IMG/VR virus record: IMGVR_UViG_3300017989_000148
Location: 1-52,114 of that record
DNA from: a virus
Direction: 5' to 3' (one strand)
Length of the DNA: 52,114 nucleotides
The position numbers and the translations under genes are program-made. The notes beneath the pieces are model-generated. The model did not search any database. It was not told where the DNA came from and was given only the letters and a program-made list of their open reading frames with translations. The stretch's first letter is position 1. The number at the start of each line of letters is the position of its first letter. This document shows positions 607 to 43,300 of this stretch, piece after piece.

Positions 607-616
607 GCGGTCAGGC
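607..616 (+). repeat. Start-associated decamer GCGGTCAGGC, copy 1
   Basis: Copy of the 10-bp word GCGGTCAGGC one base before the ATG at 618, preceded by a real SD (AAGGAGG at 601-607). Other exact copies begin at 2607, 22677, 23148, 23362, 26985, 29169, 32744, 36229, 37811 and 40363. All are on the + strand, and nine of the eleven lie 0-5 nt before an ATG or TTG. Confidence 0.9.
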
Positions 617-617
617 C

Positions 618-953
618 ATGCCGAGCGGCAACCTCACACCCACGGAGCATTGGGAGCTGTCTGCACGCCAGGCCTCAATTGCTGCACTCCAACAGGAGCG
701 GCAGGCCCTTCTCAACGAGAAGGCGTTCATTGAGACTAGGTATGGACAGATCGAGCAGCGCATCCAACTCATTCCCCAGGACCTCGCGACGGAAACGCTC
801 ATGCGCGATTCCGTTGTCAAGAAGATCGGGGAGCGCGTGGGTGCGCAAGGAGAGCAGAAGACGTGGCAGTTCAAACTAGGCAAGCAGCCGAAAGACAGTA
901 TGGTCACATGGGAGGGATCCGATGAGAAAGGCTCTGAAGGCAGTTCTGATTAG
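618..953 (+). CDS. Small coiled-coil protein of unknown function
   Basis: 111 residues with no recognised family. Residues about 15-60 are rich in Glu, Gln and Leu and look like a coiled coil; the rest is charged, with no membrane segment or cysteines. The ATG at 618 is chosen because AAGGAGG precedes it; a GTG at 546 in the same frame would put the leader hairpin inside the coding region. Its 3' end overlaps the start of the next gene by 32 nt. It opens the left cassette; a virion or lysis accessory role is only guessed from position. Confidence 0.6.
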   Translation: MPSGNLTPTEHWELSARQASIAALQQERQALLNEKAFIETRYGQIEQRIQLIPQDLATETLMRDSVVKKIGERVGAQGEQKTWQFKLGKQPKDSMVTWEGSDEKGSEGSSD

Positions 954-1404
954 CGCGGCGGTAGTTGGGTTGTCGTTGGCGGCGTTCGCCGACCTGGGAT
1001 TCTATGCAGACTCACGGCTTGACTTCGAGGTAGCTCCAGTTGGTTTCATCCCGGCACTCTCGCTTGAGCTTGGATGGGAGTCGCCGCGGTTCGCGGATGT
1101 ACTGACCGAAGCATCGTCCATTGAGTTCGGCGTATCGATTGGCAATCCGAACGTGTGGGACTTCGCCGACGACTACGCGGCCACCTTTGAGGCCGACGTG
1201 GCATTCGGCGGGCTCGCGCTTGGCGGCACGTACGAGGTAACCGTAGACAGCAACCAACTGCGTCTCGGCCGGCTCGTGTTCGCTGGGTGGGCTGCGGACG
1301 TTGCTTTGGTATGGACGCCGGCGGCATATGCGGCCATCACGCTCGGCGCGGAGCTGGCGCATCTGATGGCAACGCCGTATGTAGAAGCGCGGTTCGACTG
1401 GTAG
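922..1404 (+). CDS. Secreted, barrel-like outer-membrane protein candidate
   Basis: 160 residues. A clear Sec signal peptide (MRKAL followed by a hydrophobic stretch, predicted cut after AFA near residue 23) is followed by alternating polar and hydrophobic strands and a terminal FDW. The aromatic last residue and strand pattern resemble small outer-membrane beta-barrels or barrel-like periplasmic proteins. GGGAGGG precedes the ATG. The gene lies between a coiled-coil protein and a holin-like gene. If it is an outer-membrane protein, the host is a diderm and the product might alter the cell surface after infection; this is inference. Confidence 0.6.
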   Translation: MRKALKAVLISAAVVGLSLAAFADLGFYADSRLDFEVAPVGFIPALSLELGWESPRFADVLTEASSIEFGVSIGNPNVWDFADDYAATFEADVAFGGLALGGTYEVTVDSNQLRLGRLVFAGWAADVALVWTPAAYAAITLGAELAHLMATPYVEARFDW

Positions 1405-1414
1405 GAGGTGTGCG

Positions 1415-1687: not shown

Positions 1688-1699
1688 GACATCAGGCGA

Positions 1700-1778: not shown

Positions 1779-1798
1779 GGGTGTGAGGTGGGTGACGG

Positions 1799-2606: not shown

Positions 2607-2631
2607 GCGGTCAGGCCATAGGAGTGAAAGA
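2607..2631 (+). pseudogene. Decayed gene-start leader: decamer copy followed by ATA instead of ATG
   Basis: GCGGTCAGGC at 2607-2616 is followed by ATAGGAGTGAAAGA. At 29184 and 32756 the decamer is followed by (A/T)TGGGGGTGAAAGAGATG, so the two segments differ by only two bases up to the shared GTGAAAGA. The reading frame after the ATA stays open to 2818, but its translation does not look like a protein. I read this as the remains of a gene whose start was lost. Confidence 0.45.
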
Positions 2632-2919: not shown

Positions 2920-2925
2920 GTACAC

Positions 2926-2978: not shown

Positions 2979-3083
2979 ATGGGGGACGGATCAGTTCCCG
3001 GGCCGTCAGATTCGCCGAAGGGGACATCTGTCCCTTTTCTCTTGACGGCGGCGCGCTATTGTGATATTGTGGTAGCGCAATGA
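2979..3083 (+). CDS. 34-codon leader ORF coupled to the RHH gene
   Basis: GGAGGGTGAGGGGG precedes an ATG that opens 34 codons. The stop overlaps the RHH start codon as ATGA, so translation could be coupled. The ORF spans the terminator-like hairpin at 3018-3038 and the second promoter at 3042-3070. The peptide has no recognisable fold. Leader peptide is the best guess; a chance ORF is possible. Confidence 0.35.
   Translation: MGDGSVPGPSDSPKGTSVPFLLTAARYCDIVVAQ
3018..3038 (+). terminator. Attenuator-like terminator inside the leader ORF
   Basis: An 8-bp stem (3018-3025 with 3030-3037, one G-U pair) with loop ATCT ends in TTTTCT. It lies between the promoter at 2926 and the RHH gene, so it would stop readthrough from the first promoter unless opened, for instance by translation of the leader ORF. 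Confidence 0.5.
3042..3070 (+). promoter_or_regulatory. Strong promoter giving a near-leaderless RHH message
   Basis: TTGACG (3042-3047), 17 bp, TATTGT (3065-3070). The ATG at 3080 is 9 nt after the -10 box and has no SD, so the message would be leaderless or nearly so. The same 9-nt spacing is seen at 15642-15657. Confidence 0.6.
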
Positions 3084-3250
3084 AGAGGCGGAAGACAGTG
3101 ATGATCGACCCAGATCTACACCAGAAGGCGAAGATCGCCGCTGCTGAACGCGGGGAAGGTCTGTATGCGTTGATTGAGGAAGCAGTCCGGGCATACCTGA
3201 AGGAGGTCCCAGATGAAGGGAGACAGATGGAAAGTGCCCCCGAGCCCTGA
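3080..3250 (+). CDS. Ribbon-helix-helix repressor-like protein
   Basis: 56 residues. RRKTVMIDPDLHQKAKIAAA is the classic strand, turn, helix A of Arc/CopG-type regulators, and GLYALIEEAVRAYLKEV is helix B. Such proteins act as dimers and often repress their own promoter, which here would be the -10/-35 pair at 3042-3070 or the leader promoter. There is no SD; start by the leaderless route or by ATGA coupling to the leader ORF is likely. Its 3' end overlaps the next gene by 38 nt. It is a good candidate for the early-region regulator or lysogeny switch component; no CI-like repressor was recognised. Confidence 0.75.
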   Translation: MKRRKTVMIDPDLHQKAKIAAAERGEGLYALIEEAVRAYLKEVPDEGRQMESAPEP

Positions 3251-3850: not shown

Positions 3851-4046
3851 CGGCAAGTGCCCCCACGAGTTGCTGATCGTCCACGGCGACGGTGTGTGGT
3901 TCTGGGCCGAGTGCGGTGCTTGTGGAATGGAGGGGCCGAAGGCGAGTTCGCCTGGTGCGGCGCGGGCGAAGTTCAACCGGCGTCGCGGGCGGCAACCGAA
4001 GCGCCGAGGGCCGGTCTGGCTCCATGCGGCACAAGAGGAGGGATAG
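3843..4046 (+). CDS. Lar-like small zinc protein with repeated basic tail
   Basis: 67 residues. Cys6, Cys24 and Cys27 in CPHELL...ECGACGMEGP and a following helix that ends in AKFNRR match the layout of the restriction-alleviation (Lar) family of short zinc-ribbon phage proteins. Lar proteins modulate host type I restriction in the characterised cases; that role is not shown here. The 52-bp segment encoding the basic end (RAKFNRRRGRQPKRR) is repeated exactly in the gene at 5426. The ATG at 3843 follows AAGGAAAG. Confidence 0.6.
   Translation: MDSGKCPHELLIVHGDGVWFWAECGACGMEGPKASSPGAARAKFNRRRGRQPKRRGPVWLHAAQEEG
3957..4008 (+). repeat. 52-bp direct repeat, copy A
   Basis: Identical to 5690-5741. 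It encodes a basic peptide RAKFNRRRGRQPKRR at or near the C-terminus of two otherwise unrelated small proteins, in the same reading frame. Confidence 0.9.
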
Positions 4047-5426: not shown

Positions 5427-5758
5427 TGAAAGACGGAGGGCCGGCGTTTCCGAATCGGTTTGCGGAATTCGAAGATGGTGGCGTAGGACGCCTCGTCGGA
5501 GTCTCAGATCATCCTGGCATGTCCCTCCGCGACTGGTTTGCGGGGATGGCGATGGCCGGTTGGTTTAACGTCTTTGACAAGGAGCTGTTGACGCAGGCAA
5601 AGAGAGAAGGGATGGATGGCGCGGAGTTAAACCAGACGATCGCAGCCGCTGCCTATGAGATCGCCGACGCGATGCTCGCCGAGCGAGAGGCGGCGCGGGC
5701 GAAGTTCAACCGGCGTCGCGGGCGGCAACCGAAGCGCCGAGCGAAGGAGGAAGCATGA
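5426..5758 (+). CDS. Phage protein with SLRDWFAG / ADAMLAERE domain and basic tail
   Basis: 110 residues. GGPAFP at the start, MSLRDWFAGMAMAG in the middle and EIADAMLAERE form the complete small domain that is only partly present at 4204. The last 18 residues are the basic tail encoded by the 52-bp repeat. Paralogy with the 4204 gene is clear in the shared motifs. The ATG at 5426 overlaps the annealase stop; a GTG one codon earlier is possible. Function unknown. Confidence 0.65.
   Translation: MKDGGPAFPNRFAEFEDGGVGRLVGVSDHPGMSLRDWFAGMAMAGWFNVFDKELLTQAKREGMDGAELNQTIAAAAYEIADAMLAEREAARAKFNRRRGRQPKRRAKEEA
5690..5741 (+). repeat. 52-bp direct repeat, copy B
   Basis: Exact copy of 3957-4008, giving the same C-terminal basic peptide on a different protein. 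Confidence 0.9.
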
Positions 5759-12183: not shown

Positions 12184-12834
12184 GTGGAGACATATGTAGT
12201 TGACAAGTCACAGGTAGAAAACGGGCAGTACGTCGGGAGGGCCGACCTCTCCCAGATTGTCGGGCATCTTCGATTCGAGGCGAACCTTGGGTCCGTCTAC
12301 GTCGAAGGCAGCATTGCAGCTACTGGGATGATTGTCGCCAAGACCGGCTCGGGCATCAAGGCCGACGGGTCCATCGAGGCCGGCTGGCTCATCAAGGCCG
12401 GCGGGTACATCAAGGCCGGCGGGTACATCGAGGCCGGCTGGTTCATCAAGGCCGGCTGGTTCATCAAGGCCGGCTGGTCCATCAAGGCCGGCTGGTACAT
12501 CAAGGCCGGCTGGTACATCGAGGCCGGCGAGTTCATCAAGGCCGGCCGGTACATCAAGGCCGGTTTCGGCATTCATGCGGGATTGTCGATCACCTGCAAG
12601 GAGGGGCTTGCATTCGGGGGCCGATTGTTCGCGGGTTTGGCTCCGTGGAAGCTGGAGCTGGATGAAGGAGACGACGAAATCCGTTGTGGGTCTCATGATT
12701 CTGGCGAAATCGTTCACGGGAAGCTCGTTGTGACTGGATTCACAGGCGAGCCGAAATCCACCGCGACAATCCGTCTTGCGAACGGGCAAGTGCTGACGGG
12801 CGAACTTGTTGAGAGGGCCGATGGCGATGTCTGA
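12184..12834 (+). CDS. Hexapeptide-repeat beta-helix protein
   Basis: 216 residues from a GTG start after AAAGGAGG. Residues 58-129 are twelve hexapeptides of the form I-(K/E)-A-G-x-x, such as IKAGWY and IEAGWF, predicted to stack as a parallel beta-helix. N- and C-terminal caps flank it; the C-terminal cap (GLSITCK, then EIVHGKLVV) is a form I recognise from uncharacterised phage and bacterial proteins of this repeat type. The DNA under the helix is a tandem 18-bp array, which makes the repeat number prone to change. A structural or surface role is likely but unproven. Confidence 0.65.
   Translation: METYVVDKSQVENGQYVGRADLSQIVGHLRFEANLGSVYVEGSIAATGMIVAKTGSGIKADGSIEAGWLIKAGGYIKAGGYIEAGWFIKAGWFIKAGWSIKAGWYIKAGWYIEAGEFIKAGRYIKAGFGIHAGLSITCKEGLAFGGRLFAGLAPWKLELDEGDDEIRCGSHDSGEIVHGKLVVTGFTGEPKSTATIRLANGQVLTGELVERADGDV
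12355..12570 (+). repeat. Tandem 18-bp coding repeat, 12 units
   Basis: Twelve units of ATC(A/G)AGGCCGG-type sequence, each encoding one hexapeptide. Units vary mainly at codons 2, 5 and 6. No spacers, so not a CRISPR. Confidence 0.9.
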
Positions 12835-23141: not shown

Positions 23142-23157
23142 TTGGAGGCGGTCAGGC

Positions 23158-23334: not shown

Positions 23335-23371
23335 GGCAACTGCACGAATCATGAATCGGAGGCGGTCAGGC

Positions 23372-26612: not shown

Positions 26613-26613
26613 A

Positions 26614-26712: not shown

Positions 26713-26905
26713 CGGCAAGCCGGGCGCATCGATGTACGCGACGCGCGTACAAGTTGAGGAAGCGTACAAAGACGGCTTCCCTGAGATGCTGATCTTGGCG
26801 TTGGGCGCGGACCAAGACTGGGTACGATCGTACCGGGATCGGGTACAGATCGGGCGGCGGAATGAGAGTAGCCTGGCTGCAGCGGTTCTTGACAGCGTGG
26901 ACTAG
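26696..26905 (+). CDS. Uncharacterised small protein
   Basis: 69 residues from the ATG at 26696 (a GTG at 26681 is also in frame). Predicted helical, with YATRVQVEEAYKDGFPEMLI. Its last codons contain the promoter at 26889. No family recognised. Confidence 0.45.
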   Translation: MRDVVDGKPGASMYATRVQVEEAYKDGFPEMLILALGADQDWVRSYRDRVQIGRRNESSLAAAVLDSVD

Positions 26906-26917
26906 ATAGCATACACT
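26889..26917 (+). promoter_or_regulatory. Sigma70-type promoter for the structural operon
   Basis: TTGACA (26889-26894), 17-bp spacer, TACACT (26912-26917). It lies between the cargo block and the portal gene and is followed, as at 512, by a terminator-like hairpin and then a start-associated decamer. Confidence 0.7.
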
Positions 26918-26944
26918 AGCCTCACAGGACGAGCCATGACAACG

Positions 26945-26971
26945 GCCCCTGGCATTGCGCCAGGGGCTTTT
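26945..26971 (+). terminator. Terminator-like hairpin in the portal leader
   Basis: A 9-bp stem (26945-26953 with 26959-26967), loop ATTGC, followed by TTTT (26968-26971). About 20 nt downstream of the expected start of transcription and 23 nt before the portal ATG. It would stop the portal transcript unless antiterminated, or it ends transcripts from the cargo block. Confidence 0.7.
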
Positions 26972-26994
26972 GCATTGGCAGAAGGCGGTCAGGC

Positions 26995-29169
26995 ATGGGT
27001 CTACTCAAAACCTTGGAGCAGGGCCTTGCTGTCGAGAAGGAAAGCCAGATCTGGCCCCATCTAGCCACGTACTACGGCCCGAGCGTTGCGCACACGAGCC
27101 AGTCAAGGGATCTCGTGCAAGCGTATCGGGTCCATCCGTGGATCTATGCGGGCCTTGATGCCATCGGCAAGGCGGCAGCGAGCGTCCCGCTTGTCGCGTT
27201 GAAGATGAAACAGCGCCCGACGCGAACGATCAAGGCATTCAAAGCGCAAGAGCGGCTAGGCTGGGAGAAGCTGCTCGAGAAGTACGCCGAAGACGAGGGC
27301 GCGGAACTCGTTGACCATCCGGCGCTTGGCCTGCTCTACAAACCACTGCCGGGCGAGAACGTGACAAGCCATGACCTGCTCTATGCAGTCGTCATCTACC
27401 TCGGAACGGATGGCAACGCTTTCATCGAGAAGTGCTATCCATCGGAGAACGCGAAGGAGCCCAACGGCCTATGGCCGTTCATCGACCCGCGGAGCGTGTA
27501 TGTCATGCCGGGAGAGGAGCGGCTCGTCAAGGGCTACGTGTGGCGCAAGTCTACGGGCTACGTGGCGTTTGAAGCGGATCAGTTCATCCACTTCAAGACG
27601 TTCAACCCGGAGAATCCGTACTACGGGCTATCGCCGACGGAAGTGCTGAAGCAGAGCCTCATTGCGGATGTGCGGGCGATGGACTGGAACCGGATGTTCT
27701 TCGAGAACTCGGCGATTCCTAGCGGCTACCTGACGACTGAGAAGCACCTAGAGAAGCCGAACGCGAAGATGATCCGAGAGCTTTGGGAAGAGCAGCACAT
27801 GGGGCGCCAGCGGTCGCATCGGACGGCGGTCCTCGCGGATGGAACGAAGTATGAGTATCTCGACCGCTCGCACAAGGACATGGAGTTTCTCAGCCTCCGT
27901 GAGTGGACGCGCGATGAGGTGCTCGCCGTGCTGGGTGTGCCGCCGATTCTGGTCGGACTGCGCGAGGGAGCGAACAAGGCGATCTCCCAGACTGAGCGGC
28001 GGATGTTCTGGGAGAACACGGTCCTGCCGTGGTGTGACAAGATCGAGGCAGTGCTAGATCACGCGCTAGTCCCCGAGGAGAACATCCGGTTGATGTTCGA
28101 TGTGTCAGCAATCGAGGCACTGCAAGAGGACGTCGAGCGCAAGGCGCGGATCTGGCGCATTCGCAAGGACCTCCCGAACAAGATCGATGAGATCCGGGTA
28201 GCGTGGGATCAAGAGCCGATCGGAGGCGTCCTCGGCGAGACGGTGCTGATTCCGCGCACGTTCGTGGCGATGGACCCACAGGGGAACACCGTTGACCTCA
28301 TGGACAACAGCGGGAATGAAGTCCGCACGCTCGGAACGGGTAGACGCGTTGTAAAGGACGTAGCAGACGACATCGGTGCACTGATGCCTCCGCCTGAGAC
28401 GGCAGTACTCGAAGAGGTCTGCGAGGAGTACATGCCCGACATCGCAGTGTCGGGCGCAGGGCGCGGCGTGGACATCGTGACGGGGCTTGGGGTGACGGTT
28501 CCGCCTGACTGGGAGCAGGTGTTCAACTTCCAGGACGAGATTCAGCGATGGCTTGATTCAGAACTGGGCGAGCGCGTTGCGGACATGGATGGATGGACGC
28601 GGACACGCGGGGCACGCGTCATTCGCGAAGGCATAGATCAGGGCAAAGGCGCGAGGGCCATCGCGGCGGATCTCCGGCGTGAGTTTAGGGACATGAGCCG
28701 TACTCGTGCGCTGACCATCGCGCGCACAGAAGGCGGCAAGGCAGTGAGCTTCGGGCAGCACAAGCTCTATTCGGACGTGAAGGTAGAGCAGCATTGGTGG
28801 CAGGCGACGTTGTTCCATACGCGTACTTCTCACATCCGGGCGCACGATGCCTATTCCAAGGGCAATGCGATTCCGATTGACGATCCGTTTGAGTTCATGG
28901 GCATGGACGGCGGGACTGTCGCGACGCTTGCCCCGCGAATGACGGGAATCGGCGCGGAGGACATCAACTGCTACTGTGAAGAGATCCCACATATGCCGGG
29001 GAGGAAGGGGTTTACCACATACAAGGCGCTCGGCGTGCTGGGCTTCGAGGACTGGATGAAGGGCCTAGAGCAGGGAGACGAGTTCAAGCGATTCCAGGGC
29101 GCTCTGGCGGCCTACTTCGAGCACGAGGCCGAGCGGTACGTCGAGCACCTGATGCAGATATACGGATAG
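26995..29169 (+). CDS. Portal protein fused to a MuF-like head protein
   Basis: 724 residues. Residues 30-430 match HK97-type portals (YRVHPWIYAGLDAIGKAAAS, then LLYKPLPGENVT, and the clip region WTRDEVLAVLGVPP near 310). Residues 505-680 match the Mu gpF / SPP1 gp7 head-morphogenesis family (ARTEGGKAVSFGQ, HWWQATLFHTRTSH, INCYCEEIP). Portals form the twelve-fold DNA channel; MuF proteins enter the head and are often cargo with a C-terminal enzyme, which here is absent. The fusion means every head contains portal-linked MuF. The ATG directly follows the decamer. Confidence 0.9.
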   Translation: MGLLKTLEQGLAVEKESQIWPHLATYYGPSVAHTSQSRDLVQAYRVHPWIYAGLDAIGKAAASVPLVALKMKQRPTRTIKAFKAQERLGWEKLLEKYAEDEGAELVDHPALGLLYKPLPGENVTSHDLLYAVVIYLGTDGNAFIEKCYPSENAKEPNGLWPFIDPRSVYVMPGEERLVKGYVWRKSTGYVAFEADQFIHFKTFNPENPYYGLSPTEVLKQSLIADVRAMDWNRMFFENSAIPSGYLTTEKHLEKPNAKMIRELWEEQHMGRQRSHRTAVLADGTKYEYLDRSHKDMEFLSLREWTRDEVLAVLGVPPILVGLREGANKAISQTERRMFWENTVLPWCDKIEAVLDHALVPEENIRLMFDVSAIEALQEDVERKARIWRIRKDLPNKIDEIRVAWDQEPIGGVLGETVLIPRTFVAMDPQGNTVDLMDNSGNEVRTLGTGRRVVKDVADDIGALMPPPETAVLEEVCEEYMPDIAVSGAGRGVDIVTGLGVTVPPDWEQVFNFQDEIQRWLDSELGERVADMDGWTRTRGARVIREGIDQGKGARAIAADLRREFRDMSRTRALTIARTEGGKAVSFGQHKLYSDVKVEQHWWQATLFHTRTSHIRAHDAYSKGNAIPIDDPFEFMGMDGGTVATLAPRMTGIGAEDINCYCEEIPHMPGRKGFTTYKALGVLGFEDWMKGLEQGDEFKRFQGALAAYFEHEAERYVEHLMQIYG

Positions 29170-29198
29170 CGGTCAGGCGAAACATGGGGGTGAAAGAG

Positions 29199-31253
29199 AT
29201 GAAGAGAGCACTTGTCCTCGCGCTGGGAGTAGTCTTGCTGGCGGCGGCGTCTTCGTTTGCCATCAGTACTTCGGACTATCACATCTGGCGCGTGGCACCA
29301 GACGGGTCTACCTGCATCTGGGGCATTACGAGCACGGGGCGGATGGACCTAGTAGGCGGGGCGCAACTTGACAACACAACGGCGAGCACGCTGACGATCA
29401 CAGAGACGAACATCAGCCTAGTCGGCGTGGTGTCGTTCACTGGGGCATCAGCATTCTACGGATCGAGCCAGACGTTCGGCTATGATTCCGGGGCATACAT
29501 CAGGTTCGCAGTATCGGACACAACTGGCGTGCTGGCGATTACGCACGCTGGGAGTGCGCCGGCGACCTCATGGACGAACGGAACATCACTGAGCTTCTAC
29601 ACGCCGAGCTACACGATTGGCTACGACGCTGGGGCGTACCTGAAGTTCGCGGTGACAGACACGACCGGCGTTCTGGCGATCACTCAGGCTGGATCAGGCG
29701 AGGCGACTACGTGGACGAATGACACGTCGCTCGCATTCTACACACCGTCCTACTACGTCGGCTACGACGCTGACTCGTGGATGAAGATCTCAGTTGCTGA
29801 TACGACCGGCAATGTGACGATCACGCAGACGGGTTCGAGCAAGGCGCTTACCTGGACGGCTGGTGGTGGGTTCGATTTCGTTGGGGCGGCCGCACTGGAC
29901 GCAACGACTGTCACGTCCCTTACAGACGGCACGGCTACGTTGACCAGCGGCGACTTGACGGGGCTGACAAGCCTGGGGATTACAGGCGATACCACTCAGA
30001 CAGGGTCGGTCACCTTGATCGGTGCAGGCGGCGACCTGACCGTCGGGGACGATGCCGATGTCACGGGCGATCTTGACGTGGACGGGATAACCAATCTTGA
30101 CGTGGTTGACATCGATGACGCGGTGAACATCGCGGGGGCTCTGACGCATGTTGGGGCAGTCTATCGAACAGGCAATACATCGCAGACTGGGTCGATCACG
30201 CTTCTAGGCACTGGCGGGGACCTCACGGTAGCAGACGATGCGTCCATCCAGGACCTGACGGTGACGACTACGGCCACCTTTGCCGGCGCAACGATTGCGA
30301 ATCTTGGTTCGGTCACTACAGCGGACATCAACGGCGGGACGGTCGACGGCGCGACAATCGGCGCAGGATCTGCCGGGGCTGGCACGTTCACAACGATGAC
30401 CTGCCAGACGGGCAGCATCACCTACGCAACGATTGGCGGCGGCTACGGCGCGACGGGAGTCACGGTGTCGGCGGCTGGCGTGATTCAGGCTAACGGGGCG
30501 ATCACGACAGACGGATCCCTGACGGCCGACAGTGCAGCGATCGGCGGTGGCTACGGCTCGACCGGCGTCTCGCTTTCCACGGCAGGTGTCATCCAAGCAA
30601 ACGGCGCGATCACGAGCGACGGCGCGGTTACTGGTGGTTCTCTGACTGACGGTACTGCGACGGTCACCGGTGGGAACATCTCATCGACGGCCGGGACGAT
30701 CTCGCTGACGACCAACTCGCTTGACGAACGGTTCATGGTGTTCGGCATTGGCTACAACACCGATGCGCAGACGCCGTCGGTGAATGGCCTTGAGGTGCTC
30801 GGCGGCGGTATGCCACTGACTTGTGCTGGCCTTGACGGTGGCGCGGCTTCTGTCGGATCTACTGAGGGCTACGTGTCGATTGGCGATGCGGCGGACTACT
30901 GTCGATTCGCAATCCCGCTGCCTCCGCTGTGGCTCGACAACGGGCAGACCGGCTCGCTGGTTCTCCAGTTCAACGTCCACGAGCAAACCAACGAGGAATG
31001 CAACATGGACGTGCGGCTGTTCGAGTACGGCAACACCACGGCGATCCTTACCGACACGCTGGCTGTTCCCGATACCACGGCGCGAGGGTGGGCCAGCCTT
31101 GTGACCAACAGCACGGGCATTGGCCAGGATACGGACCTCACCGGCGACGATACCTACCTGATCGTCGAGCTGACCTCTACGGCGGACACGGATGACTTCT
31201 ACCTCTACGGAGTGCGTTGGAACTACGACGTAGGCGTGGTGAACACGCAGTAG
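29199..31253 (+). CDS. Long beta-repeat protein with a signal peptide
   Basis: 684 residues from the ATG at 29199 behind GGGGGTGA; an ATG at 29184 would place extra charged residues before the signal. MKRALVLALGVVLLAAASSF is a Sec signal, cut near residue 21. The mature part has about three copies of a 43-residue unit (near 85-215, such as SDTTGVLAITHAGSAPAT), then Gly/Thr/Asp-rich repeats with TGSVTLIGAGGDLTV and GVIQANGAITTDG. The end is a jelly-roll-like domain near 565-684. The sequence looks like a fibre. A Sec signal on a gene between portal and protease is unexpected. Confidence 0.65.
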   Translation: MKRALVLALGVVLLAAASSFAISTSDYHIWRVAPDGSTCIWGITSTGRMDLVGGAQLDNTTASTLTITETNISLVGVVSFTGASAFYGSSQTFGYDSGAYIRFAVSDTTGVLAITHAGSAPATSWTNGTSLSFYTPSYTIGYDAGAYLKFAVTDTTGVLAITQAGSGEATTWTNDTSLAFYTPSYYVGYDADSWMKISVADTTGNVTITQTGSSKALTWTAGGGFDFVGAAALDATTVTSLTDGTATLTSGDLTGLTSLGITGDTTQTGSVTLIGAGGDLTVGDDADVTGDLDVDGITNLDVVDIDDAVNIAGALTHVGAVYRTGNTSQTGSITLLGTGGDLTVADDASIQDLTVTTTATFAGATIANLGSVTTADINGGTVDGATIGAGSAGAGTFTTMTCQTGSITYATIGGGYGATGVTVSAAGVIQANGAITTDGSLTADSAAIGGGYGSTGVSLSTAGVIQANGAITSDGAVTGGSLTDGTATVTGGNISSTAGTISLTTNSLDERFMVFGIGYNTDAQTPSVNGLEVLGGGMPLTCAGLDGGAASVGSTEGYVSIGDAADYCRFAIPLPPLWLDNGQTGSLVLQFNVHEQTNEECNMDVRLFEYGNTTAILTDTLAVPDTTARGWASLVTNSTGIGQDTDLTGDDTYLIVELTSTADTDDFYLYGVRWNYDVGVVNTQ

Positions 31254-31255
31254 CC

Positions 31256-31393
31256 ATGAAGCTTAAGTGCGAGCAGTGCGGAATGGTCGTGAAATCGTGG
31301 GCGCGTGAGTGTCCCCGCTGCGGCGGGCGGCTCGTGCGATCCAAGGCGGTCAAGCGGAAGGGGGGACCATGCGCATCACCGAAGTCAGGGTGA
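31256..31393 (+). CDS. Small zinc-ribbon protein
   Basis: 45 residues; CEQCGMVV and CPRCGGRL are two CxxC pairs of a compact zinc ribbon. The gene fills the gap before the protease and overlaps its start by 25 nt. A degenerate decamer (GCGGTCAAGC at 31346) lies inside it. Confidence 0.5.
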   Translation: MKLKCEQCGMVVKSWARECPRCGGRLVRSKAVKRKGGPCASPKSG

Positions 31394-32796
31394 AGGGCGA
31401 AGCCGAGCATCAGGTGGTCCCCCGCGAAGAGCTCGGGCGCTTGCTTGAGGCTGGGCAGGTTGACGGCGTGTTCAAGTATGGGCTGGCTGCACGGGATGAG
31501 CCGCAAGGCGAAGTGAAGGCGGTTCACACGCTGGACTACGCCGGGCTGAAATCCGATCGGCCCACAGCGTCGAGCGTCATCACTTCGGCCAATGTCGATC
31601 GTGATGGCGACGTGGTACAGACAGGCGGGATGCTCGTCGAGCACTACCTGAAGAATCCGGTTGTGCTACCGATGCACATGCACGACTTCCCTGTCGGATT
31701 GGCCGAGAAGCTGAAGGTCCTCAAGAACTCAGCATGGGCGCAGTGGCAGTGGCTCGTTGACCTGCCGGATTCCCTCGCAGCCAAGTATCAGGCGTGGTGG
31801 GATGCGAATGCGATCAATGCCACGTCGATCGGCTTCCTTCCGATCAAGTGGGGGCCGACGAAGGAAGGATACGAGGGCTGGGTCTACGAAGAGTGGGAGC
31901 TGCTCGAGTTCTCGCCTGTAGTCATCCCGAGCAACCGAGATGCCGTGCGATCGCTTGAGGCGTTCGGCGAGATGGTGATGGCCGGCCCGAGTCCGGTCAT
32001 GAAGTCGCTGTGGGTTGCTGGTGAGTCTCAGGGGCGGCCGAAGCAGGTGGCAGTGCCGTCGACGACCTTCAAGGACGAGCGCGGCAACACGGTCACGATC
32101 ACGATTGGGGAGAACCTGGTCAAGATCGAGGACGAGCCCGGTGATGACGGTATGTCTGCGACCGCAGACAAGGGCGTTATCACCTACGCCCGAGCCCATC
32201 CTGACGGCACGCCGAAGGCCGATCCCGGCACTGAGTGGGACAACGGCAAGGAGCGCGCGCCTGCGGACATCGACGATCTCAAGGTCATGTGTGCGTGGGT
32301 TGACTCGGAGGAGCCGGACAACAAGGGCTCGTACAAGTTCGCTCACCATCATCAGGACGGCAAGGCGGTCAACAAGCGGGCGTGCTCGGCGGCGATCGGT
32401 GTGCTCAACGGCGGTCGTGGCGGGACGAACATCCCCGAGGGAGATCGGAAGGGTGTATACGCGCACGTGCGCAAACACCTGGTCGATGACTTCGGGGTTG
32501 ATCCCGATGACGTGCCCGAGCTGAAAGACGCAAAGGGCCTCGCATCCTTGGATGAGATCCGCCTGGCTCATGTAGCAGGCGCGCTCACGGCGGACGAAGC
32601 CTATGAAGAGATAGAAGGATTGGTCGCTGGCCTGGAGATCGAACTCCGGTCGGCGGTAGAGGCGGAAGCGAAGGCAATAGAGGCCGCCGAAATGTGGCGC
32701 GGTAGAGCACGCGAGCTGGCGGCGAAGGTGATCCGATCGAAAGGCGGTCAGGCCTTTGGGGGTGAAAGAGATGGACCAAGAGCAGTTGACGACTGA
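31369..32796 (+). CDS. Prohead protease
   Basis: 475 residues. Residues 60-210 form the HK97-type prohead serine protease: the histidine segment LPMHMHDFPVGLAEK (about 104-118), and TSIGFLP (about 150-156) with the Ser. The middle (265-380) carries YKFAHHHQDGKAVNKRAC and YAHVRKHLVDDFG, a domain seen in several phage proteases, and the C-terminal part (420-475) is a helical scaffold-like tail. It matures the head by cleaving scaffold and capsid delta domains. GGGGGACC precedes the ATG. It overlaps the major capsid gene by 26 nt. Confidence 0.85.
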   Translation: MRITEVRVKGEAEHQVVPREELGRLLEAGQVDGVFKYGLAARDEPQGEVKAVHTLDYAGLKSDRPTASSVITSANVDRDGDVVQTGGMLVEHYLKNPVVLPMHMHDFPVGLAEKLKVLKNSAWAQWQWLVDLPDSLAAKYQAWWDANAINATSIGFLPIKWGPTKEGYEGWVYEEWELLEFSPVVIPSNRDAVRSLEAFGEMVMAGPSPVMKSLWVAGESQGRPKQVAVPSTTFKDERGNTVTITIGENLVKIEDEPGDDGMSATADKGVITYARAHPDGTPKADPGTEWDNGKERAPADIDDLKVMCAWVDSEEPDNKGSYKFAHHHQDGKAVNKRACSAAIGVLNGGRGGTNIPEGDRKGVYAHVRKHLVDDFGVDPDDVPELKDAKGLASLDEIRLAHVAGALTADEAYEEIEGLVAGLEIELRSAVEAEAKAIEAAEMWRGRARELAAKVIRSKGGQAFGGERDGPRAVDD

Positions 32797-33991
32797 GCTG
32801 ACAGAAGAGCAGCTCGATGCGCTTGCCGTCCAGGTCGCCAGCAAGCTACTGGATAGCGGGGCGGATAGCGCAGAGACGGAGGACGGGAAGACCGTCCAGA
32901 GGGCGGATTCAATTCCGGCGCAGGTGAAGGCGGTCGATCCTGCGCAGGCGGGTGAGAAGCAGCCGGAGCAGAAGTTCGCGGCACCAGCAGTTCATCCGCA
33001 GCCGGAGCGCAAGCTGGAATCGTTCAGCATCGCGGCGGCGATTCGCGGGAAGATCTACGGTGATTGGCGTGGAGCGGAACTTGAGCGCGAATGGTGCCGG
33101 GCGAATCCTTCTTATGGCGTAGAGAAGGCAACGCTAGATTCGGCCGATGATCTGTACGGTGGGTTCCTTGTCCCGAGCGTGACGGCAAGCGGCATCATCT
33201 CGATGGTCAAGGCGAAGGCGCAGTTCTACGCTGCGGGCGCGACGGTCATCCAGAACGCGCCGTACCACTTCATGCTGAACACTCAGGAGTCGGCGTCTAG
33301 TGGCTACTGGATTGGGATGGAGGCACAGCCGGGTGCGATCACCGCGTCCGATCTGACATTCGGTCAAGTCGAGATGCGACTGCGCCGATGTGCTGGGCGT
33401 GTCGTGATCGACGAGGACCTGCTTCGGGCGTCGAACGAGGCGGTTGAGTCGTTGGTTCGGCAGGATCTGGCTGAGCAAATTGCACTGGCAGAGGACGCAG
33501 CTTTCTACGATGGCACGGGCGGTACGCAGCCGCTTGGTCTTCTGAACTGGCCGGGTATCTCGTCCTACACGACGGACAACTCGGGCAGCAAGATCACCGG
33601 CGATTTGCTGCTGACGCGCAAGGCGAACATCGAAGGCCGCAACGGCGATTACAGCGGGTGGATGACGCATCCGACGCAGATAGATCTGATCCGCAAGCTG
33701 AAGACAGGCGATTCCGAGTACATCTTGATCCCGAGCTTCTGGGAAGGCGAGAAGAAGATGATTCTTGGGATGAACTACTACGCCTCGACGCAGTACGACA
33801 ACGACAAGATCATCCTCGGGAACTTCAGCGATTGTGTGATTGCCGAGGGTGGCGGAATCGAGATTCGGGTGCTGAAGGACGGCTCCTACGGCGAGAAGCT
33901 CCAGCACGGCATCATTGGCGTGCATCGGGTGGACTTCGCGCTTCGCCGGACAGTCAACTTCGACATCATCTCGAATCTGGCGACTTCGTAG
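32771..33991 (+). CDS. Major capsid protein, HK97 fold
   Basis: 406 residues. An N-terminal helical, charged part (1-95) is a likely delta domain, removed by the upstream protease. From about residue 110 (DSADDLYGGFLVPSVTASGI) the sequence matches HK97 gp5-type capsids, with the E-loop and P-domain (ALAEDAAFYDGTGGTQPLGL near 238-257) and the C-terminal RVDFALRRTVNFDI. It builds the icosahedral head. GGGGGTGAAAGAG precedes the ATG at 32771; a TTG at 32756 would give the prefix MGVKE, as at 29184. Confidence 0.9.
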   Translation: MDQEQLTTELTEEQLDALAVQVASKLLDSGADSAETEDGKTVQRADSIPAQVKAVDPAQAGEKQPEQKFAAPAVHPQPERKLESFSIAAAIRGKIYGDWRGAELEREWCRANPSYGVEKATLDSADDLYGGFLVPSVTASGIISMVKAKAQFYAAGATVIQNAPYHFMLNTQESASSGYWIGMEAQPGAITASDLTFGQVEMRLRRCAGRVVIDEDLLRASNEAVESLVRQDLAEQIALAEDAAFYDGTGGTQPLGLLNWPGISSYTTDNSGSKITGDLLLTRKANIEGRNGDYSGWMTHPTQIDLIRKLKTGDSEYILIPSFWEGEKKMILGMNYYASTQYDNDKIILGNFSDCVIAEGGGIEIRVLKDGSYGEKLQHGIIGVHRVDFALRRTVNFDIISNLATS

Positions 33992-34005
33992 GGGAGGTGA
34001 CATAG

Positions 34006-34398
34006 ATGCCCCGAATGAGCTTTGACGACAACTTCTACACTCGGGAACTGTTCCGGGCGAAGACCTACACGGACACGGGCGGAGCGAAAGAGCAGACGAC
34101 CGGCTGGACATCGATTGACAACTGCCGTGATGGCGGACTCATTATCGACGTTTCGGGCCTGAGCTCTGAGACGTTGACGGTACAACTTCTGACGGCAAAG
34201 GACACGAGCGGCACGAGTTCGACGGATGCCCTGTCTTCGGACCAGGCGATCACGACTGACGGCGTGCATACCTACGAGCTGCAGGATCTCTACCCCTACG
34301 TAGCGCTCCAGTACGACATGGGGGCGGCGGAGGCTTGCGACTTCGCGGCGGTGCTAGTTGGCTTCAACCGGCCCGTGAGGCCGAACACGGCGAGCTAG
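34006..34398 (+). CDS. Head-decoration-type protein, uncharacterised
   Basis: 130 residues directly after the capsid gene behind GGGAGGTGA. Beta-rich with many Thr and Ser, and no hydrophobic helix. Genes in this position are often decoration proteins or connector adaptors, but no family is certain. Confidence 0.55.
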   Translation: MPRMSFDDNFYTRELFRAKTYTDTGGAKEQTTGWTSIDNCRDGGLIIDVSGLSSETLTVQLLTAKDTSGTSSTDALSSDQAITTDGVHTYELQDLYPYVALQYDMGAAEACDFAAVLVGFNRPVRPNTAS

Positions 34399-34400
34399 TC

Positions 34401-35039
34401 ATGGCCTGGCCTACGGCGAGCGACGTAGCAACGCGGGCAGGGGCGACCCTGTCGAGCGCCGAGTGGACGACTACAGCGGCAGTATCGTCGCTGCTGACGA
34501 ATGCGAAGGCGCTCGCAGCGGCCCATTGCGGCCGCGATCCGCGCTACGGCTTTGACGAGGCCAGCGTGACAGAGAAGCTAGACGGGGGGTGTTTGACCAT
34601 CCCGGTCATCCACCCCCCAATCCAGGGGTCAGCAACGGTCGTGTGGGATACGGACACGCTGAGTGAGTCAAACGAGGAGTTCTACGCCTACGATGACTAC
34701 ATCCGGATCGTCGAATCGGACAAGGACGACCTAGAGCCAGCGACCGTGCGGCCGAGATACCGGAAGTATGTGACGCTGACCTACACGGGTGGGTTCTCGG
34801 ATTCGACATCCGGCGCCCGGGCGATCCCGACGGAGTTGAAGGACGTCGTGTTGGAGATGGCGACGCGGGCGTTGATGAAGATCGACCAGCAATACCGCCA
34901 GGATGGGAACCCAAAGAAGCTGCAAGTCGGTGAGTACAACGTGACGTGGAAGGAAGACGACGTGCTCTTCTCTGACCTGTTGCGGCGGCTCGACCGGCTC
35001 GGCGGGTCGGTGAACGTATTCGCGGGGGCCATCGCGTGA
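34401..35039 (+). CDS. Head-tail connector adaptor
   Basis: 212 residues. An alpha-helical start (PTASDVATRAGATLSSAEW) and a long beta-rich middle, then helices ELKDVVLEMATRALMKI and FSDLLRRLDRLGG, correspond to the gp6-type adaptors that dock under the portal. It follows the capsid genes and its stop overlaps the next GTG. Family assignment is by layout and position. Confidence 0.65.
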   Translation: MAWPTASDVATRAGATLSSAEWTTTAAVSSLLTNAKALAAAHCGRDPRYGFDEASVTEKLDGGCLTIPVIHPPIQGSATVVWDTDTLSESNEEFYAYDDYIRIVESDKDDLEPATVRPRYRKYVTLTYTGGFSDSTSGARAIPTELKDVVLEMATRALMKIDQQYRQDGNPKKLQVGEYNVTWKEDDVLFSDLLRRLDRLGGSVNVFAGAIA

Positions 35040-36221: not shown

Positions 36222-36239
36222 GAGAAAGGCGGTCAGGCC

Positions 36240-37847
36240 ATGTTGGTAATCGGGATCGGAACAGGGCGTTGTGGCACGGTGTCTCTTGCTCGCCTGCTGA
36301 ACAAGCAGGACGGCTGCAAGGTGACGCATGAAGCCGAGCCGCTCATGCCTTGGCTGAAGGAGGAAGCGACTCAGGAGGAGCGAGAGATTCTGCGCCGGGT
36401 CTACGGTCTTGAAGATCCGATGCAGCCGTATCGCATTCACGCCGAGCGGTTCAAGGAGCGGCTGAAGACGCATCGGCTTGTTGGCGATGTTGCGAGCTTC
36501 TGGCTGCCCTACCTCGACAACATCGCGGAGGACTTCCCCGACTTCAAGGTCATTGCGCTGATCCGCGCAGACAAGCAGGCGTTCGTCGAGTCGTTCGTGA
36601 AGAAGACGGGCGGCGAGGATGGGGTCAACCACTGGATCGACCACGACGGGACGAAGTGGCAGCGAAACATCTGGTCGATGATCCATCCGTCCTACGATGC
36701 GGAGACCAAGCGCGAGGCGTTGGGCCGCTACTACGACGACTACAACCGCGCGATCATGGAGATGGCCAAGGAGCATGACAACGTACTGGTCGTGCGAATG
36801 GAGGATCTGAGTAGCCACGAAGAGCAGGATCGGATCTTCGCATTCCTCGGGATTGAATCCTACGACTACGACGACGCGCATTACAACGTAGGCCCGAGCG
36901 ACGTTGCTGGCGCGAATCCCGTGCGCGAAGACGCTGAAGGCAACAGCTACGAGCTTGTCCGCGATGAGTCCGGGCGATTGACGAAGCGTGCGCCGGCAGG
37001 AGACGTGGCGCAGGTTCACGTCTCTGAGAAGCTCGTTGGGGCGACGGCGGGGGATGTGCTCGACAAGCCGCGCATCTTCATCGCCATGCCGAACAAGGTG
37101 GACATCGCGTGGCCGACGGCCAAGCGGCTATTCGAGTGGGGCGAGTCAGGAAAGTACGTCCTGCATGTATACGGACCGATGAACGTCGTGCCTCATCACC
37201 GCGCACGGAACGTCTGCCACCGGGAGTTCGTGCAGACACAAGAGCGGCTGAGGGGCAAGGGCATCCGTCCGTTTACGCACATGCTGTGGGTCGATTCGGA
37301 TACGGAGCCGCCGGAGGACGCCATCGATGTACTTCTGCGACACGACAAGGACATCTGTGGCTTCCTCGTTCAGGCATGGAAGGATCATGGGCCGATGCAC
37401 ATTGCCCTCAACTGGAATGAGAAGGCGAATGGGTACTCACCGCACTACCGCGAGCCGAACAGCCCGGGGGTTCAGAGGGTAGACATTGCGAGCCTAGCCT
37501 GTTGCTTGGTCAAGGCAGAAGTAATGGAAGCCATGCCGCATGGAGTGTTTGCATGGGAGGAAACCGACGAATGGGGCACGAAGGGCTGGGGCGAGGACTT
37601 CGTGTTCTTCCGCAAGGCGAAGGACTTGGGCTTTGAAACCTACGTGGACTACACGGCGTTGTGTAGGCACTACGTGAGGATTGACATAGCAGACGCGAAC
37701 AAGCTGCTTGCAGATGTTGGGCGGAAGCAATTCCAGAACGGCGTCGCAAGCGTAGGCGAAGAGATGAAGGCGAGCTTGCTCAGTCACTTGGAGCAGGCGA
37801 CACACACATGGCGGTCAGGCATGGGGGTGAGGAAAGATGGCGAATAG
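36240..37847 (+). CDS. Sulfotransferase-glycosyltransferase fusion
   Basis: 535 residues. Residues 1-205 look like a PAPS-dependent sulfotransferase: IGIGTGRCGTVSLARLL is the 5'-phosphosulfate loop and VVRMEDLSSHEEQDRIF the conserved 3' segment. From about 275 a GT-A glycosyltransferase begins (PRIFIAMPNKVDIAW), with LWVDSDTEPP near 346-355 as the DxD motif and GWGEDFVFFRKA near 455. The decamer lies one base before the ATG. The two domains could add a sulfated sugar to a glycan or protein. It sits between the tail terminator and the tail tube genes, so its target may be the virion itself, or the host surface. Confidence 0.8.
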   Translation: MLVIGIGTGRCGTVSLARLLNKQDGCKVTHEAEPLMPWLKEEATQEEREILRRVYGLEDPMQPYRIHAERFKERLKTHRLVGDVASFWLPYLDNIAEDFPDFKVIALIRADKQAFVESFVKKTGGEDGVNHWIDHDGTKWQRNIWSMIHPSYDAETKREALGRYYDDYNRAIMEMAKEHDNVLVVRMEDLSSHEEQDRIFAFLGIESYDYDDAHYNVGPSDVAGANPVREDAEGNSYELVRDESGRLTKRAPAGDVAQVHVSEKLVGATAGDVLDKPRIFIAMPNKVDIAWPTAKRLFEWGESGKYVLHVYGPMNVVPHHRARNVCHREFVQTQERLRGKGIRPFTHMLWVDSDTEPPEDAIDVLLRHDKDICGFLVQAWKDHGPMHIALNWNEKANGYSPHYREPNSPGVQRVDIASLACCLVKAEVMEAMPHGVFAWEETDEWGTKGWGEDFVFFRKAKDLGFETYVDYTALCRHYVRIDIADANKLLADVGRKQFQNGVASVGEEMKASLLSHLEQATHTWRSGMGVRKDGE

Positions 37848-40110: not shown

Positions 40111-40358
40111 CAGGCCTCAACCTCAAGGCGATCTTCGGCGTCGAGTTTGTGTGGGACCTGGACGACATCCAGTTCGGCTATGCGATAGATCTCGTGTGCG
40201 CCAAGGCCTCGCTAGAGCGCGCACAGAATCCAGCCGGCATGTATGGCGAGGACGGCATAGAAGTCATCCGCGCGGCGGCTCCTAGCCCGATGGTAGACGA
40301 CGAGATCTGGCTCGATGCGGAGTGCAGGATGAAGGGGGTGCCGACAAGACACCCCTAG
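40047..40358 (+). CDS. Tail chaperone extension, -1 frameshift product (GT-type)
   Basis: The -1 frame from 40047 to 40358 encodes about 100 residues including REYAGIVAGLNLKAIFG and DLDDIQFGYAIDLVCAK, with no start codon before the GTG at 40149. GGGGGAA at 40050-40056 is a plausible slippery site (P-site GGG can re-pair after a -1 slip). The fusion would match the G-GT pair of lambda-like phages. The site is not a classical X-XXY-YYZ heptamer, so the exact slip point is inferred. Confidence 0.55.
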   Translation, partial: HGGIRDRAGSELNVREYAGIVAGLNLKAIFGVEFVWDLDDIQFGYAIDLVCAKASLERAQNPAGMYGEDGIEVIRAAAPSPMVDDEIWLDAECRMKGVPTRHP

Positions 40359-40373
40359 GAAGGCGGTCAGGCC

Positions 40374-43300
40374 ATGGCACAAGGCGAAGCCCTTGGCACA
40401 GCTTACTTTGACCTCATGGCCCGCCAGCAGGGGCTCAATGCTGGCCTACTCGCGGCGGGAAACACGCTTCGCGGCTGGCATGGCCGCATGGCGAAGTTCG
40501 CCACGATCGCCATCGGCGTCGTCGGCATTGCTGCTGTAGTCAAGGGCCTCAACTCTGTCGTCAGTGCAGCCGCTAGCTTCGAGCAGGCGATGGCCGACGT
40601 GCGGGCCGTCACGCAGCCGACCGCCCAGCAATTCGAGCAGCTTGAGCAGACGGCCAAGGAACTCGGCAAGACGACCAAGTTCACCATGACAGACATCGCG
40701 GCCGGCATGGAGGCGCTGGGCCGCGCGGGATTCTCCACGACTGAGATCATCGGCTCAATGGCCGGCGTTGCCGACATGGCCGCCGCGGCGTCCATCTCCC
40801 TCGGCGAGGCGGCGGACATCGCGTCGAAGACCATCCGCGCGCTTGGCCTCGAAGCCTCTGAGAGCACGCGAGTTGCTGACGTTCTCGCCCAGGCGGCGGC
40901 CAGCTCTAACACGACGGTCACCATGCTTGGCGAATCCCTGAAGTACATCGCACCCATCGCGCGATCGGCCGGGTTCTCACTCGAGGAAACCGTGGCTGCT
41001 GTAGCGAAGCTCGGCGATGTTGGCATTCAAGGTTGTTACGACGACCAGACGGATGTGCTAACGCGCCGCGGATGGATCTCGTGGCAAGACGCGCGCATGG
41101 ACGACGAGTTTGCCACATTGAATCCAGAGTCCAACGAGATTGAGTACCAGAGCCCGTCGCGGCTTGTGCGCTATCGGCACAATGGGTGCATGTATCAAGT
41201 GCGGAACCAATCAATTGACTTGTCTGTCACGCCAGATCACCGGATGTGGGTTATGGGACGCGGGCAAGAGGCCTATGAGGTTTTGACGGCCGAAGAAGTT
41301 GCTGGGCGGCAAGTACGCTATCAAACGGGCGCAATGGAATGGCGCGGCAATGATGCTGCTACGTATCGACTCCCAGGATTCCAGCAGTATCGCGGTAGTT
41401 GGGTGAAGGAAGTCTCCGCGCTTGAGGTCGACGCTGAGCTTTGGGCGGCATTTCTGGGGTGGTACATCTCAGAGGGGAGTTCGGATGTGCATCGCGGTAA
41501 CTACCGCGTGAGGATCACTCAGCGCCCTGGGGATGTGCGCGACCGGATGCGCAGTGTTCTCGCCATGCTCCCGTGGGCTGTTGTTGAAAGCAAGGATGGC
41601 TTTTCGATCACCAATCAGCAGCTTTGGAATGAAGTTCGTCGGCTTGGGAAGGCTCATGAAAAGCGCATTCCACAGTACGCGAAGGAGTGGTCTCCGAGGT
41701 TGTTGCGGCTCCTGCTCGCGGCCTTGATTGAAGGAGACGGAGACCAAAACGGAGCATACTACACATCTTCCATCCAGCTTCGCGACGATGTTATGGAGAC
41801 CGCGCTCAAGCTAGGGTTCTCTACATCAATATACCTGGTTGCGCGTGCTGGCCATGAGACGAATCTGGAATCAGAGGGGCGGCCGATCCGCGCTCGTTTT
41901 GACCAATGGAAGGTCAATATCCGCAAGCGATCGCACCCATGGTTCACGCCGAGTGAATACACGGGCGCACATGGTGCGAGACTAGATGGATCGCGCCACG
42001 AGGCGTTTGAGGGATGGGTTGAATACGACGGAGAGGTATTCTGTGCCGAAGTTCCAAACCACCTCCTCATTGTGCGGCGGAACGGGAAAGCCATTGTATC
42101 CGGCAACTCGATGGCCGGCACCTCCCTTCGCTTTGCCTTCTCCGAACTCATCGCTACGTCTGGTGACTTTGTAGACCAGCTACACGAGATGGGAGTGAGC
42201 CTCGCGGACATCACGGGGCCGGGCGGCGAGTTGCTGCAGTTCTCGGAGATTCTCGGAGTGCTCACAGAGCACGGAGCGACAACTGCTGAGGTCATCGCAA
42301 TGGTCGGCAAGCGCGCCGGGCCGGCCCTCGCGGCGCTGATTCAGAACAACGATGGACTGCGCGAGATGGTGACACTGCTCGAGAACGCGAGTGGTGCCGC
42401 GCGGGAGATGGCCGAAGTTCGCCTGCAAACGCTCTCCGGCCAGCTCGAAGTCCTCCGAGGCTCGTGGGAGTTGCTCAAGGTCACGATCGGAGAGAAGGTC
42501 ATCCCGATCCTCACTAGGCTTGTACAGGACACGCTAATCCCAACCGTCAACAGAGTTGTTGAGTGGGCTGAGGAGTCCGGGGCGCTGGAAACTGCGCTCG
42601 AAAGCCTTTTCAGCACCTTGGCCGGCTCCTTCGAGTGGGTGATCGGTAACTGGCGTCAGGTTGTAACGGGGCTCGAAGCCGTTGGGGCAGCCTTGGCGGC
42701 GATCGTTGTCTTCACGAACCCAATCCTCGCTCTCGTCTCTGCGCTTACCGCCCTCGGGATGGCGCTCGCTGGTGGGGGAATCGACAGGCCGGTTGCACAG
42801 GCAGAGCGAAGCCTGCAGGCGTTCGGCGCCCAACTCGACTACCTGCTGAATCTCGCTGTCGCGACAGGCAGCGAACAGCAGTTGGCCGGCGTTTTCGAGA
42901 GGATCCGGATCGCCATCCGAGAGGCCATTGAGGAGACCGAGGATCTAGACATCCAAGGCCGTAGGGCACTCTATCGGTTCTCCATTGCCCTGTTTGACCT
43001 TCAGAAGGAGGTCATGGACCTCCCGCTGGGAGAAGCCGTGGACGCGTGGAATGCTGGCCTGCGCGAACTCTTCGCGGATTGGGAGGGCATGTTCCCCGTC
43101 CTTGGCGACATCGAGACAGCCATGAGCCAGATGACAACGACCTGGGAGGCCGACCTCCTCAACCTACGGGCGACCATTGCCTTGATTACTGGCGACCTCG
43201 AAGAGATGACCGAGGAAGCAGAGGGAGCCGCGTCGGCCGTATTCAGCGGCATCACGTTCGGGGCTGGGGCGGCACCGGCAGGAACTGGACCGACTTTCGG

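Follow-up and report, generated by a model that had tools for sequence, protein, structure and literature searches.

The window analyzed here, i.e. the whole stretch of 52,114 nt of the bacterial virus record IMGVR_UViG_3300017989_000148, encodes a serine integrase (matching the PHROG integrases and invertases), an Erf-like annealing protein, the large terminase, portal, major capsid and tape measure proteins, and carries a 10-bp word, GCGGTCAGGC (the decamer), which recurs at the starts of about ten of its late genes. A sister contig, IMGVR_UViG_3300017987_000158, is 99.5–100% identical over long matches (window position = 53461 minus contig position) and joins window position 52114 to position 1 with 18 bases in between. 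As the sister bridges both ends, the window represents an almost complete circular phage genome. Counting the decamer yielded 11 exact copies on the + strand and none on the − strand, whereas 100 dinucleotide shuffles gave a mean of 0.39 and a maximum of 2, with none of the 100 reaching 11. A preliminary description of the window had listed the 11 positions, all on the + strand, and had put the expectation far below one copy; the recount reproduced every position and the shuffles agree with the expectation. Matches with one mismatch numbered 17, all 17 on the + strand, compared to 8.07 expected over both strands. The decamer is the commonest 10-mer on the + strand of the window, followed by CATCAAGGCC with 10 copies. 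Around the circle, the exact copies run from 22677 via 40363 and 607 to 2607, all on the late side, and the stretch 2617–22676 of the window is devoid of them, a restriction absent from the preliminary description.

The relation to gene starts was assessed for 58 predicted + strand starts, derived from genes called by codon usage with six starts moved by hand, and including the small open reading frames (ORFs) at 22672 and 23158, which were added by hand because they carry the word. Ten of the 11 copies are located at −32 to +17 of these starts, regions that make up 4.6% of the window (binomial p = 4e-13); the association comprises 8 of the 11 when both hand-added ORFs are excluded. The best match per start showed a bimodal distribution, with 10 starts at zero, 2 at one, 2 at two and 44 at three or more mismatches, compared to 0.48, 0.31 and 2.3 expected from random windows at zero, one and two mismatches, respectively. 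One of the two one-mismatch starts is 8016, which belongs to the first part of the integrase coding sequence and could be a chance match; the other near copy described before, 31346, also exists and looks real. All 10 starts with the decamer are ATG, compared to 16 of the 29 other late starts, with late genes defined as those starting from 18271 on or below 2200 (n = 39). The decamer is a real, non-random, start-linked element of the late genes, and the individual copies are collected in Table 1.

Table 1 Decamer copies and neighboring features of the window. Duplex energies (kcal/mol, without → with decamer) refer to an assumed 16S rRNA tail; SD, Shine–Dalgarno sequence.
Feature	Position	Strand	Context	Duplex energy
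Decamer, direct	607..616	+	GGAG + decamer + C + ATG 618	−8.0 → −18.4
Decamer, relic-like at lost start	2607..2616	+	C-ATA after the word, then GGAGTGAAAG; no notable gene behind	
Decamer after start codon	22677..22686	+	+5..+14 (A of ATG 22672 = 0), 67-codon ORF	
Decamer, direct	23148..23157	+	GGAG + decamer + ATG 23158, 58-codon ORF	−5.2 → −15.6
Decamer, direct	23362..23371	+	GGAG + decamer + ATG 23372; gene lipoprotein-like by eye	−6.3 → −16.7
Decamer, direct	26985..26994	+	GAAG + decamer + ATG 26995, portal	−2.6 → −10.4
Decamer, displaced	29169..29178	+	20 nt ahead of likely ATG 29199, SD GGGGGTGA in gap	
One-mismatch copy GCGGTCAAGC	31346..31355	+	13 nt ahead of ATG 31369, G-rich SD in gap	
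Decamer, displaced	32744..32753	+	17 nt ahead of likely ATG 32771 (major capsid), SD GGGGGTGA in gap	
Decamer, direct	36229..36238	+	AAAG + decamer + C + ATG 36240, sulfotransferase-like gene	−7.3 → −13.1
Decamer, displaced	37811..37820	+	16 nt ahead of likely ATG 37837, within 3' end of preceding gene, SD GGGGGTGA in gap	
Decamer, direct	40363..40372	+	GAAG + decamer + C + ATG 40374, tape measure	−4.2 → −12.7
Promoter-like, sigma70-type, TTGACA-17-TAGACT	512..540	+	Upstream of copy 607; hairpin ~567–592 in between	
Promoter-like, sigma70-type, TTGACA-17-TACACT	26889..26917	+	Upstream of copy 26985	
Terminator-like hairpin	26944..26968	+	Between promoter-like site 26889..26917 and portal start	

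The sister contains 10 decamer copies, corresponding to all 10 window sites that it covers, the remaining site, 2607, lying outside of it. More distant relatives were found by their integrases (68–69% identical), namely IMGVR_UViG_3300008516_000235 (G016, 44.0 kb), 3300035698_017582 (G017, 35.5 kb) and 3300014613_000168 (G018, 17.8 kb), all of them possibly fragments. These three contain neither an exact decamer nor any 10-mer occurring more than three times at 0–1 nt ahead of ATG, and GTATAC-containing repeats of the relatives showed no pattern at starts. Homologous genes lack the word as well: in G016 the counterparts of the tape measure, the portal and the genes at 29199 and 23372 (the last one 62% identical), and in G018 the counterparts of the portal and the gene at 29199. 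The decamer therefore looks lineage-specific. The preliminary description had taken related phages lacking a conserved word before starts as a sign against the element; such an absence was found in these three, but they are far from the window in most late genes. Searches of IMG/VR with the portal, terminase and capsid returned the sister only, those with the gene at 25188 the sister and G016, while the integrase had a single match (23%) in the genome collection, uninformative as to the host, and the stretch 26600–34500, the part compared at the DNA level, had none among phage records. Scanning IMG/VR for the extended words AGGCGGTCAGGCATG and AGGCGGTCAGGCCATG retrieved 57 and 15 stretches, respectively, the former being about the chance expectation as estimated by hand and comprising two loci in the sister and 13 counted over a partial stretch rather than the whole record. 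In whole-record counts for 55 records (15 + 40), only the sister exceeded three copies of the decamer. A candidate second decamer genome, L049, was discarded, its three copies lying by eye inside long ORFs and not ahead of starts.

The copies at the gene starts adopt two main arrangements. In the direct type (607, 23148, 23362, 26985, 36229, 40363), GGAG, GAAG or AAAG is followed by the decamer, 0–1 base and ATG. In the displaced type (29169, 32744, 37811 and the one-mismatch copy 31346), the decamer is followed by a few bases and a G-rich Shine–Dalgarno (SD) sequence, with the ATG 13–20 nt past the word. For the 29169 copy the start is probably ATG 29199, because the homologs in G016 and G018 begin with MKKALVL at the equivalent of 29199, with an SD just before. 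For the 37811 copy, the ORF from the adjoining ATG ends after 8 codons, and the start at 37837 is preferred because a repeat common with the neighboring start 38259 fits it. By analogy with these, the true start for the 32744 copy is probably ATG 32771, behind GGGGGTGAAAGAG. Nine copies had been described as lying 0–5 nt ahead of an ATG or TTG; their positions are correct, but at 29169, 32744 and 37811 this NTG is probably not the start. The two remaining copies are as described: the one at 2607 precedes an ATA in place of the start codon and is apparently a relic, and the one at 22677 lies within a coding start. The bases after the three exact displaced copies (29184–29201, 32756–32773, 37821–37839) are nearly alike: two of them read (A/T)TGGGGGTGAAAGAGATG, from which the other one differs little. 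This stretch gives a second possible in-frame start five codons upstream in two genes. A near copy at 17448, 3 nt ahead of a GTG, was not counted, as it is by eye a coding part of a small ORF. A meaning of the decamer at the protein level was likewise rejected, since its frame, worked out by hand, is the same at 22677 and 37811 but different at 32744, and the direct copies precede the starts.

The flanks of the copies bear on how the word came to its present places. Pairwise identity at −60 to −5 and +14 to +60 was about that of other gene starts, indicating that the copies are unlike recent duplications with their flanks. The only clearly alike flank was the 5-nt SD ahead of the direct copies (0.64 vs 0.27), with a borderline likeness at −30 to −15 of the direct copies (0.32 vs 0.27, reached in 7% of draws). 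The earlier proposal of a recombination joint finds little support in this profile, which apart from those 5 nt resembles other starts on both sides. A related explanation is that the decamer has no present regulatory role, a good ribosome site having been copied between gene starts by short recombination or gene conversion, dead and displaced copies included. Such copying would account for the relic at 2607 and the displaced copies, and the Erf-like annealing protein as well as many internal repeats, one of them linking the neighboring starts 37837 and 38259, are consistent with it. The decamer further holds 18.0 bits of information compared to the 13.2 bits needed for finding 11 sites on both strands, an upper estimate given that only exact matches made up the set; this excess would fit a recent spread or, alternatively, two readers of one site. 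However, the flanks should have traveled along with the word, yet they are near the null on both sides with only the borderline stretch at −30 to −15, and a stretch of ten bases is very little for homologous exchange. We therefore regard copying without a role as a doubtful origin of the pattern.

We next consider pairing with the 3' tail of 16S rRNA, for which duplex energies were calculated with an assumed standard tail. In the best duplex of the direct copies, a mismatch separated the SD helix from another short one formed by GGU or GGUC of the decamer, an arrangement that was clean in 607, 23148 and 36229 and had further breaks in 23362, 26985 and 40363. Each of the six gained by inclusion of the decamer (Table 1), as did 32744 (−5.0 → −12.5 kcal/mol), while 22677 gained barely; the duplexes of 29169 and 37811 amounted to −7.4 and −7.8 kcal/mol, and that of 2607 to only −4.4 kcal/mol. 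The decamer alone yields −4.4 kcal/mol, and part of each gain stems from its first G, which completes the SD. The paired part of the direct copies stops about 4–6 nt short of the AUG, leaving the AGGC just ahead of the AUG unaccounted for by rRNA pairing.

Our preferred reading, to which we assign a probability of about 0.58, is that the decamer is a lineage-specific start-associated sequence (SAS) that exerts its effect when translation of late mRNA is initiated. At the six genes with the direct form, it would make up the invariable 3' half of a cassette RRAG-GCGGUCAGGC-(C)AUG at the start, in which the purines together with the decamer's first G would pair with the 16S tail, GGU(C) would add a second short helix beyond the mismatch, and AGGC would fill the distance to the AUG. 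We infer that the decamer is read at the RNA level and sets the initiation of late genes, with older or rearranged uses presumably represented by the copies at 2607 and 22677 and by the displaced ones, which a new SD follows. The translation spacer considered in the preliminary description comes close to this reading for the six direct copies, but the displaced ones and those at 22677 and 2607 are placed otherwise.

Several observations weigh against this role at initiation. The exact decamer occurs in 10 of the 39 late genes and is lacking in 29, and the position of the copies is not fixed, with three upstream of another SD, one past the start codon and one at a dead start. Gene gaps showed no difference between genes with the word (9 measured) and those without it (29; p = 0.49). 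Strong pairing is also achieved without the word, the 48 other starts ranging from −4.4 to −17.6 kcal/mol compared to −8.6 to −18.4 kcal/mol for the 10 with an exact copy, and the tail used may differ from that of the host. No RNA fold shared among the copies was seen, and an Rfam search gave no match up to E 1. The absence of exact copies from G016, G017 and G018 points in the same direction.

The invariant AGGC and the varied placement leave room for trans-acting partners. About ten late genes might form a translational regulon: a single factor, from phage or host, would recognize GCGGUCAGGC on their mRNAs, whether the site closely precedes the SD or lies between it and the AUG, and turn these genes on or off jointly, which would explain both the invariant rRNA-unpaired AGGC and the varied site placement within reach of the ribosome. 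A regulator site as proposed before is possible; no factor was found, and we advance the regulon only tentatively, expecting rather that it does not apply. Control of late translation by a small RNA pairing with the decamer is highly improbable: the decamer, as an exact word within or close to the ribosome footprint, would make a plausible target, but no complement with up to one mismatch occurs in the window, G–U pairing not having been searched.

Start-associated words were described in 2011 and have no known function, and searching the literature for 'start associated sequence' turned up only reports on Cluster K, Cluster EF and Cluster O phages, those on start-associated words all concerning actinobacterial phages. 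A search for the decamer letters as text gave, among the titles listed, none on phage repeats. The Cluster K SAS, GGGATAGGAGCCC, is an asymmetric short word with a 13-bp consensus holding an AGGAG SD core, present in 11–19 copies, nearly always in one orientation, typically 3–7 bp ahead of the starts of unrelated genes, with ATG preferred and with partial pairing to the 16S tail that leaves further invariant bases unexplained (PMC3203893). It is located in the non-structural half, mostly in gaps above 50 bp, and about half of the copies are accompanied by 17-bp inverted repeats (PMC3203893). The decamer resembles it in its asymmetry and single orientation (11 of 11 on the + strand), in the six copies 0–1 nt ahead of ATG, in the preference for ATG, in preceding unrelated genes and in its partial 16S pairing. 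As to conservation across related phages, another trait of the Cluster K SAS, the near-identical sister keeps the decamer at all 10 sites it covers, whereas the three distant relatives have no exact copy. In contrast, the decamer is another word without an internal AGGAG core that in the direct copies follows the SD and abuts the ATG or nearly so, it occupies the late side including the portal, capsid and tape measure starts, it shows no preference for upstream gaps, and the hairpins near some copies come without common flanks, fold or flanking motif. As it lacks several defining features, the decamer is an SAS analog and not a member of the Cluster K SAS, so that the comparison drawn in the preliminary description is apt as an analogy. 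AGGC could, like the unexplained ends of the Cluster K SAS, be read by a further factor. Microbacterium phages of Cluster EF carry an SAS-like motif of unknown function, GGGAAAGGACCCC, in ten copies ahead of starts (PMC7302621); this motif differs from the decamer in its sequence, in its position at the ribosome-binding site itself and in a linked upstream motif. The 17-bp repeats of Cluster O phages are likewise genome-wide and partly intergenic, but are described as having dyad symmetry and no close link to starts (PMC4351075).

A different mode of action is exemplified by the Cluster A stoperators, asymmetric multi-copy sites predominantly in one orientation relative to transcription (PMC6550527, PMC9283540), which the immunity repressor binds in DNA (PMC6550527). 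By analogy, a phage repressor or transcription factor could bind the decamer in DNA and stop or tune late transcription. The decamer is likewise asymmetric, in a single orientation and present in many copies near gene joints of an integrase-bearing phage, and the predominance of one orientation among stoperators (PMC6550527) extends the likeness. Yet stoperators are distributed over the genome with an early-promoter operator, whereas the decamer is tied to starts, and the early side (2617–22676), including the early promoter-like sites, lacks exact copies. Moreover, six copies keep 0–1 nt to the ATG, which would be needless for a DNA site. Such exactness is, furthermore, unusual for repressor sites. 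The sole regulator-like protein among those scanned is a 56-residue ribbon-helix-helix candidate at 3080, below Pfam's cut-off. We consequently deem a DNA-level site unlikely. The region of this candidate (3042–3247) has a promoter-like site ahead, and its DNA matches two places in G016.

Hairpins had been noted upstream of the copies at 607 (UACG loop), 2607 and 26985 (ATTGC loop), and all three are present. Those at 607 and 26985 are each preceded by a sigma70-type promoter-like site and followed by the start (Table 1). Only the latter was called terminator-like on the + strand, whereas the 2607 hairpin was called on the − strand (2564–2590) and the 607 hairpin remained uncalled. The decamer copies do not have hairpins in common. 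A leader layout, comprising a sigma70-type promoter-like site, a strong hairpin within ~10–40 nt and then mostly an SD and a start, is common to the window (512–592, 26889–26968), G016 (15914, 38721), G017 (30567, and 10330 on the − strand) and G018 (6544 on the − strand), i.e. two leaders in each of the first three genomes and one seen in G018. Most of these hairpins have a T-rich tail and several are preceded by a small 5' hairpin, and AGCACGC(T/A)GGTG(C/T)GA is common to both G017 leaders and the G018 leader. This layout resembles a control point for antitermination or attenuation.

To put the start-abutting position into context, 68 yardstick loci were used (657 kb in total), mostly chosen for a decamer that they contain and all of them far below the window in length. 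The top 10-mer at 0–1 nt ahead of ATG occurred 1–2 times in 67 of the 68 loci, compared to 7 times in the window; it reached 2 in all 30 Markov copies of the window, 3 in G016, 2 in G017, 2 in G018 and 3 in TM4. Counting at 0–8 nt ahead of ATG recovered the known SAS in TM4 (GGATAGGAGC, 7), compared to 8 for the window word. The one exception among the 68 loci was L073, which, like L088, belongs to the 104-kb contig IMGVR_UViG_3300037466_003379 and led to 22 exact copies of GGAGCACCCG directly ahead of ATG, 8 on the + and 14 on the − strand, with a reversed-pattern control giving 0. This contig is unrelated to the window; a 6.4-kb piece of it has 71% GC and matches 19 phage records, all Streptomyces, and the matches listed (10 of the 19) share one 161-base stretch. 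Like the window decamer, GGAGCACCCG is an exact multi-copy word that abuts ATG, here as SD plus invariant spacer, but unlike it, it is found on both strands and holds the SD inside the word. GGAGCACCCG also resembles the 3' part of the Cluster K SAS.

Further features were observed along the window and in one relative. On the early side, an exact 52-bp direct repeat occupies 3957–4008 and 5690–5741, and an 18-bp repeat array (12303–12608), whose length seems to differ in the sister, lies within the ORF 12184–12834. Amid the capsid and tail genes, the gene 36240–37847 combines a sulfotransferase-like N-terminal part with a glycosyltransferase-like C-terminal part. In G017, ARAGORN calls an odd 89-base tRNA-Asp with anticodon ATC (L070, 4489–4577, − strand).

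What is new here is a start-associated word of a known kind, but in late genes and, in the direct copies, placed after the SD. With this placement, and with a single genome combining intact copies with dead and displaced ones, the window provides a clean set for testing such words. The second instance, GGAGCACCCG with its 22 copies, suggests that mining metagenomic phages can yield further start-associated words. If a factor indeed reads the decamer, the late genes of a phage would be under a translational switch that is sequence-specific.

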